Origin: Candidatus Acidulodesulfobacterium ferriphilum
GTDB taxonomy: Bacteria > SZUA-79 > Acidulodesulfobacterales > Acidulodesulfobacteraceae
Length of the DNA: 64,000 bases
Direction: 5' to 3'
NCBI GenBank assembly: GCA_004195035.1
Contig: SGBD01000001.1
Location: 806,001-870,000, forward strand
A program made the position numbers and the translations under genes. Positions 17,838 to 18,045 of the stretch are shown in pieces (positions within the stretch are counted from its first letter, which is position 1; every line of letters starts with the position of its first letter). The notes below the pieces were generated by a model. It did no database searches. It was given only the letters and a program-made list of their open reading frames with translations, and was not told where the DNA came from.

Positions 17838-17909
17838 CCTATTTAAATTAAATTAATCAAAGGAGTCCATGAATTAACTTATTTTAAAATTTTAAAATTA
17901 AATAAATAA

Positions 17910-17944
17910 AAGCGCAATTGGGCGCTTGTGGCGATGACGCCATA
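17910..17944 (+). promoter_or_regulatory. Candidate ANTAR-type antiterminator hairpins in the nifH leader
   Basis: Hairpin 1: AAGCGC (17910-17915) and GCGCTT (17922-17927) enclose the six-base loop AATTGG. Hairpin 2: TGTGGCG (17927-17933) and CGCCATA (17938-17944) enclose ATGA; if its top pair opens, the loop is also six bases. The right arm of hairpin 2 is also the left end of the terminator stem, so the two structures exclude each other. This is the layout of ANTAR-controlled leaders. As I recall the ANTAR loop consensus (A at position 1, G at position 4), each loop matches only partly. Confidence 0.6.
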
Positions 17945-17997
17945 ATTAAAGGGATTTGTATGCTTTATCCCTTTGGTTATGGCGTTTTTTGTTTTTA
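17938..17997 (+). terminator. Intrinsic terminator in the nifH leader (attenuator)
   Basis: An 18-bp stem, 17938-17955 with 17967-17984, has only two G-U pairs (TT 17946-17947 with GG 17975-17976). It encloses an 11-base loop and is followed by TTTTTTGTTTTT. It lies about 100 bases after the predicted start and about 50 bases before nifH, where no other gene ends, so it must act as an attenuator of nifH. Confidence 0.88.
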
Positions 17998-18045
17998 ATT
18001 TTATTACTAATTCAATAAAACTATTTATTTTTGGAGGTAAAACAA

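Follow-up and report, generated by a model that had tools for sequence, protein, structure and literature searches.

In Geobacter sulfurreducens, the nif genes are reportedly controlled by GnfR/GnfK antitermination, which Ueki and Lovley are said to have described in 2010. The system is said to comprise a nif-linked REC-ANTAR regulator, a sigma-54 promoter, the hexaloop hairpins P1 and P2, and an overlapping terminator before the nif operon.

Related switches operate on other genes. In the structure of EutV of Enterococcus faecalis, the G at loop position 4 (G4) stacks on Tyr164, and the A at position 1 (A1) is without a specific contact (PMC8934654). For NasR/NasT of nitrate assimilation, an aromatic residue at the stacking position was proposed as necessary (PMC7496416). 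Actinobacterial ANTAR RNAs have dual hexaloops with a relaxed loop sequence (PMC8164766).

Here we describe the nifH leader in a stretch of 64 kb (64,000 nucleotides, "the window") from the 1.87-Mb genome of Candidatus Acidulodesulfobacterium ferriphilum. Members of Candidatus Acidulodesulfobacterales are acid-mine organisms reported as nitrogen fixers (PMC6776010). From sequence comparison and folding, we consider it very probable that this leader attenuates transcription and that the ANTAR response regulator encoded in its nif cluster controls it. The kind of mechanism is already known (GnfR/EutV-type antitermination); the lineage is new and the motif is a variant. The features are the following.

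17822..17837, forward strand: sigma-54 (-24/-12) promoter TGGCATGAAAATTGCT, from sequence
17848..18045, forward strand: nifH 5' leader, transcribed and untranslated, from the promoter position, the RBS and the nifH ATG at 18046
17910..17927, forward strand: hairpin P1, 6-bp stem, AAGCGC[AATTGG]GCGCTT, hexaloop 17916-17921 with U at loop position 4, from sequence and covariation
17928..17943, forward strand: hairpin P2 (candidate antiterminator), 5-bp stem, hexaloop GATGAC 17933-17938 with G at loop position 4, from sequence and covariation
17936..17990, forward strand: intrinsic terminator, stem 17936-17955 with 17967-17986, U-run 17985-17990 (TTTTTT), second U-run 17992-17996, from folding and covariation
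18033-18037, forward strand: RBS GGAGG, from sequence
18046..18909, forward strand: nifH, first operon gene (NCBIfam TIGR01287, above cut-off)
27351..27959, forward strand: REC-ANTAR response regulator, proposed antiterminator protein (Pfam PF00072, PF03861)
28023-28340 and 28396-28803, forward strand: two P-II genes (Pfam PF00543)

As in the GnfR system, a REC-ANTAR protein is encoded with the nif genes, a sigma-54 promoter and then an attenuator precede the nif operon, and the P2 core GGC[RANGRC]GCC is common to the family studied here and to the Desulfobacterota-class leaders described below. On the other hand, the protein identity is only ~35%, loop position 4 of P1 is U instead of G, there is no gap of 3-17 nt between P1 and P2, which abut, the ANTAR gene stands after nifX with the two P-II genes and not before nifH, and a single target site was found.

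With EutV (PMC3369931; structure, PMC8934654) the locus shares the REC-ANTAR architecture, the dual hexaloops, the overlap of P2 with the terminator and most RNA-contact residues, the equivalents of R142, K143, K147, K149, E160 and M172 being kept. EutV differs in having A1 and G4 in both loops, the aromatic Y164 where the present protein has His, and ethanolamine as its signal. NasR/NasT (PMC7496416) is likewise an antitermination system with a two-hairpin leader before a nitrogen-related operon; however, its protein carries a NIT sensor domain and Trp at the stacking position, whereas the present one is a response regulator. The actinobacterial RNAs (PMC8164766) are similar in their dual hexaloops and relaxed loops, but their linkers are 2-25 nt long compared to ~0-1 nt here, and many of them are without terminator overlap.

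Layout of the operon and folding of the leader

The position of the promoter places the predicted transcript start at ~17848. Such a promoter was found once per nifH leader in 21 of 21 leaders examined in the SZUA-79 family, while a search within 1.5 kb upstream of nifH gave no NifA-type TGT-N10-ACA sites. The operon downstream of the leader reads nifH-nifB-methyltransferase-ferredoxin-nifD-K-E-N-nifX. The methyltransferase-like ORF (19764-20729, 321 aa) lies inside the nif operon between a short nifB (311 aa) and the ferredoxin gene, and is kept in the relatives examined, genus g2 included.

The ANTAR gene follows nifX and precedes the two P-II genes, an order that is conserved in relatives. 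These P-II genes, different from each other, stand here and not between nifH and nifD, where nifI usually lies; as a possibility, the pair (28023-28803) provides the nitrogen-status input. No sensor kinase gene was seen in the stretch of the nif cluster scanned. The product of 27351-27959 matched PF03861 with 62.2 bits (cut-off 27.3) and is the only ANTAR protein in the whole genome. Its alignment showed that the receiver residues D17, D18, D61, T88 and K115 are kept.

The preliminary description had placed a strong terminator before nifH and two hairpins upstream, the first with a six-base loop and the second sharing an arm with the terminator. The elements lie as described, and the first loop is the AATTGG at 17916-17921. 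Counting G-U pairs, the terminator stem has 20 bp and a folding energy of -28.7 kcal/mol when folded alone. Its base includes the 3' arm of P2 (17939-17943), which is a part of the terminator 5' arm; P2 and the terminator are therefore mutually exclusive. In folding of the region 17908-17990, the structure with P1 and the terminator reached -38.0 kcal/mol compared to -15.4 kcal/mol for P1 with P2. When partial transcripts were folded, P1 and P2 formed first, and P2 was lost only once the 3' arm of the terminator was complete. The leader fold had a z-score of -6.9, with none of 200 shuffled sequences equally stable.

Two details of the hairpins depend on how pairs are counted. The dual hexaloop motif has 2-25 nt between its hairpins; the P1-P2 linker is 0-1 nt with full stems, and 4 nt when the count is limited to the innermost pairs. 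The P2 loop in the window could, as an alternative to the hexaloop, close to a tetraloop via a G17933-C17938 pair, and P2 may close in the same way in genus g1.

We defined a descriptor consisting of a hexaloop hairpin with purine at loop position 1 and G4, overlapping a terminator of at least 10 bp, with a second hexaloop hairpin just upstream. It matched once in the window, both strands included, and in none of 100 dinucleotide-shuffled windows. At the gathering threshold, an Rfam search of the whole window called tRNA as the only family, with no ANTAR RNA call; weak Rfam matches on the leader were rejected as chance.

Conservation and covariation in the SZUA-79 family

The hairpins P1 and P2 and the terminator were found upstream of nifH in 15 genomes of four genera of the SZUA-79 family (Ca. 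Acidulodesulfobacterales). The P1-P2 alignment was ungapped with invariant spacing in 15/15 genomes, and the loop length and flanks of the terminator varied. Covariation, which the preliminary description had named among the checks on its reading, was observed in all three helices across the 15 genomes. In P1, 96.7% of the alignment cells were paired, and both sides had changed at two pairs. P2 had the same percentage of paired cells, with both-side changes in 8 cells; for the terminator, 92.5% of cells were paired, and both-side changes were seen at 8 pairs (21 cells). For P2 as well as for the terminator, none of 500 shuffles scored as high.

Three arms change together. Columns 24, 37 and 119, which belong to the 5' arm of P2, the arm in common and the 3' arm of the terminator, covary as C-G-C versus U-A-U, and columns 23, 38 and 97 covary likewise, such that pairing is preserved in P2 as well as in the competing terminator. 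This three-way covariation indicates that selection kept both exclusive helices, which fits the requirement of an attenuator and would not be needed for a plain terminator. The terminator is strong alone and would work without P1 and P2, as one would expect of an ordinary constitutive terminator or mRNA-end structure (serving insulation, polarity or transcript stability) that a hairpin happens to overlap. We regard that explanation as highly improbable, given that the terminator sits between the operon's own promoter and its first gene, that changes in the P2 5' arm are matched in both partners, for which a terminator on its own would have no need, and that P1 is kept with invariant spacing. 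The reading as an ANTAR-type attenuator thus gained support from the two exclusive helices covarying in the 15 genomes.

The loops had been said to match the A1/G4 consensus only partly, and this was borne out. Compared with the dual hexaloop motif (Ramesh 2012), the leader has two adjacent hairpins with stems of at least 3 bp (here 6 bp and 5 bp), six-base loops in P1 and P2 in 15/15 genomes, and a P2 that overlaps and excludes an intrinsic terminator. However, A1 is not present in both loops, and neither is G4. The family P1 loop is RANURN, with U4 instead of G4 in 15/15 genomes, and the P2 loop is RANGRC, with G4 in 15/15. Position 1 is A in 13 of 15 P1 loops and in 10 of 15 P2 loops, and G in the others; the window has A1 in P1 and G1 in P2. 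While the nifH leader is not a strict A1/G4 dual-hexaloop member, the comparison supports it as one that would work alike, that is, as GnfR-type nif antitermination in a variant form, from a new lineage.

The ANTAR gene as probable partner of the leader

A covariance model of P1-P2 gave one strong site per genome, always in the nifH leader, the window included. A second match in one genome (G025), near an MnmE-like GTPase gene, was rejected. The ANTAR gene was visible in 13 of the 15 genomes with the attenuator; in the other two (G003 and G014) the nifH contig ends before the expected place of the gene. In all genomes where both places were visible the gene and the attenuator occurred together, with G019 as the sole exception.

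That exception was traced to a misbinned contig. The ANTAR match in this g2 genome (L013) lies on a 3.1-kb contig, G019:C145, 98.5% identical to a g6 genome, while the nifH contig of G019 is ~91% identical to g2; the match was rejected as a binning error. A contig misbinned in this way would mislead presence/absence tables.

Genus g2 shows the converse state. In its six genomes with nifH the sigma-54 promoter is kept, and the ANTAR gene and the hairpins are both missing. In the three genomes inspected the cluster is collinear (nifH-B-MT-fdx-D-K-E-N-X-PII-PII), with no ANTAR gene between nifX and the P-II genes. The gene and the hairpins are thus absent together from an otherwise unchanged cluster, in which they would be 9 kb apart. 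Since g2 is one clade, this joint absence counts as one evolutionary event, either a loss or a gain, and not as many. Among 80 related ANTAR loci scanned, nif genes adjoined only loci of the SZUA-79 family.

A similar layout was observed farther away. In the Desulfobacterota phylum, reached via a Syntrophobacteraceae record, nifV and nifH adjoined the ANTAR gene at one of the 30 best loci. In the class of that genome, 176 of the 244 genomes had a close ANTAR homologue, and among the 30 best loci in the class nifH adjoined 15. In all 15 of these nifH leaders a hairpin of the GGC[AAAGGC]GCC type overlapped a terminator, and in 14 of them a sigma-54 promoter was detected within the stretch examined. 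Most also had an upstream P1 hairpin with G at position 4 of a six- or seven-base loop (e.g., GCCGCA, GACGCG, GTTGCG); by eye, a few more had a P1 with a 3-bp stem, and two near-identical genomes were without a clear P1. The P1-P2 gap was 3-17 nt in the clear cases. By locus tag, gnfR (GSU2822; PMC7962754) and nifH (GSU2821; PMC2825233) are neighbours; the class leaders are therefore probably the Geobacter GnfR system.

Some leaders on the Desulfobacterota side had other arrangements. Two nifH leaders (L186 and L209) carried two tandem hexaloop-terminator attenuators in series. The nifV leader upstream of a nifV-ANTAR-nifH run (L178) had just one hexaloop hairpin, CGGC[AACGAC]GCC, which overlaps a terminator; this hairpin begins ~10 nt after a sigma-54-like promoter, which leaves no room for P1 and makes it a natural one-hexaloop case.

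The preliminary description had assigned the leader to the ANTAR protein of 27351-27959 and had tied its reading to the conservation of the hairpins in close relatives. The hairpins are conserved in the 15 genomes of four genera and are lacking in g2, which is also without the ANTAR gene. The link to the protein is supported by that joint absence in a collinear cluster, by the pairing of the only ANTAR protein with the only strong RNA site in the genome, and by the like layout beside nif-linked ANTAR genes in the Desulfobacterota class.

These observations also bear on whether a real attenuator could be switched by something else, such as another RNA-binding protein, a small RNA or a metabolite, with the ANTAR gene serving another target. 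The departure of the P1 loop and of P2 loop position 1 from the full A1/G4 pattern would agree with this, as would the replacement of the residue that makes the Y164 contact in EutV. Still, it appears improbable. Gene and attenuator are either both present or both absent, the P1-P2 model accepts no further site in the genome, and in another class the P2 element is again found next to ANTAR genes linked to nif. Three other P2-pattern matches in the genome lie in coding sequence without a terminator and were rejected as further targets.

Recognition, mode of action and meaning

Counting against control by the ANTAR protein, P1 is without the G4 that stacks on ANTAR in EutV, and the equivalent of Y164 is His, or Leu in g5. 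The aromatic residue present at this position in EutV (Tyr) and NasR (Trp) is absent in the window's ANTAR regulator, which has His175; His was also found in all other aligned family members except genus g5 (Leu). In the Desulfobacterota class, Phe or Tyr occupied the position in all 30 ANTAR proteins of the 30 best loci. His was also seen at three Desulfobacterota ANTAR loci, for which no nif gene was found within 1.5 kb. One REC-ANTAR gene (L177) whose product has His at this position adjoins a gene that encodes a cysteine-rich protein of iron-sulfur type; no nif gene was found in its vicinity. Because His is sporadic in other ANTAR proteins, its presence alone does not prove co-evolution, and we treat the protein-RNA covariation as a lead and not as a result. 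A shift of the ANTAR recognition code in the lineage is a tentative idea that we are inclined to doubt: P1 would be read via U4 instead of G4, the change of the stacking aromatic to His or Leu would compensate, and the dimer would perhaps bind the abutting hairpins as a single unit.

If the ANTAR protein does control the leader, the switch could work as follows. A sigma-54 RNA polymerase would start ~200 nt before nifH, and P1 and P2 would fold first. With P2 unheld, the terminator would capture the P2 3' arm and most transcripts would stop ~55 nt before nifH. Nitrogen limitation may activate the ANTAR protein by phosphorylation or through the neighbouring P-II proteins. The active protein, probably phosphorylated, would then bind the hexaloops as a dimer and hold P2, as expected from what is established for ANTAR proteins; the terminator could then not form its base, and nifHBDKENX would be transcribed. 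Nitrogen scarcity as the signal and relief of termination by binding are both inferred by analogy with EutV, NasR and GnfR. If nitrogen limitation does activate the protein, nif transcription would need both sigma-54 activation and antitermination.

The direction of control is unreadable from sequence, and an action on translation has been suggested for some ANTAR RNAs (PMC8164766). A protein acting as a brake, for example by holding the terminator state or blocking translation, is nevertheless the least probable of the alternatives that we considered, and scarcely credible. Binding would most likely be at P2, which cannot form together with the terminator, and should thus promote readthrough; ~50 nt separate the terminator from the RBS, and EutV and NasR act positively.

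Antitermination by the ANTAR protein would put nitrogenase under RNA control in a deep-branching acid mine drainage lineage, far from Geobacter, and on the structural operon itself. Clade g2, with a collinear cluster and neither the regulator gene nor the RNA element, is a natural control. The U4 loop and the His residue make a testable case of change in ANTAR-RNA recognition; the shifted recognition code, if true, would show ANTAR specificity evolving while the switch stays functional.
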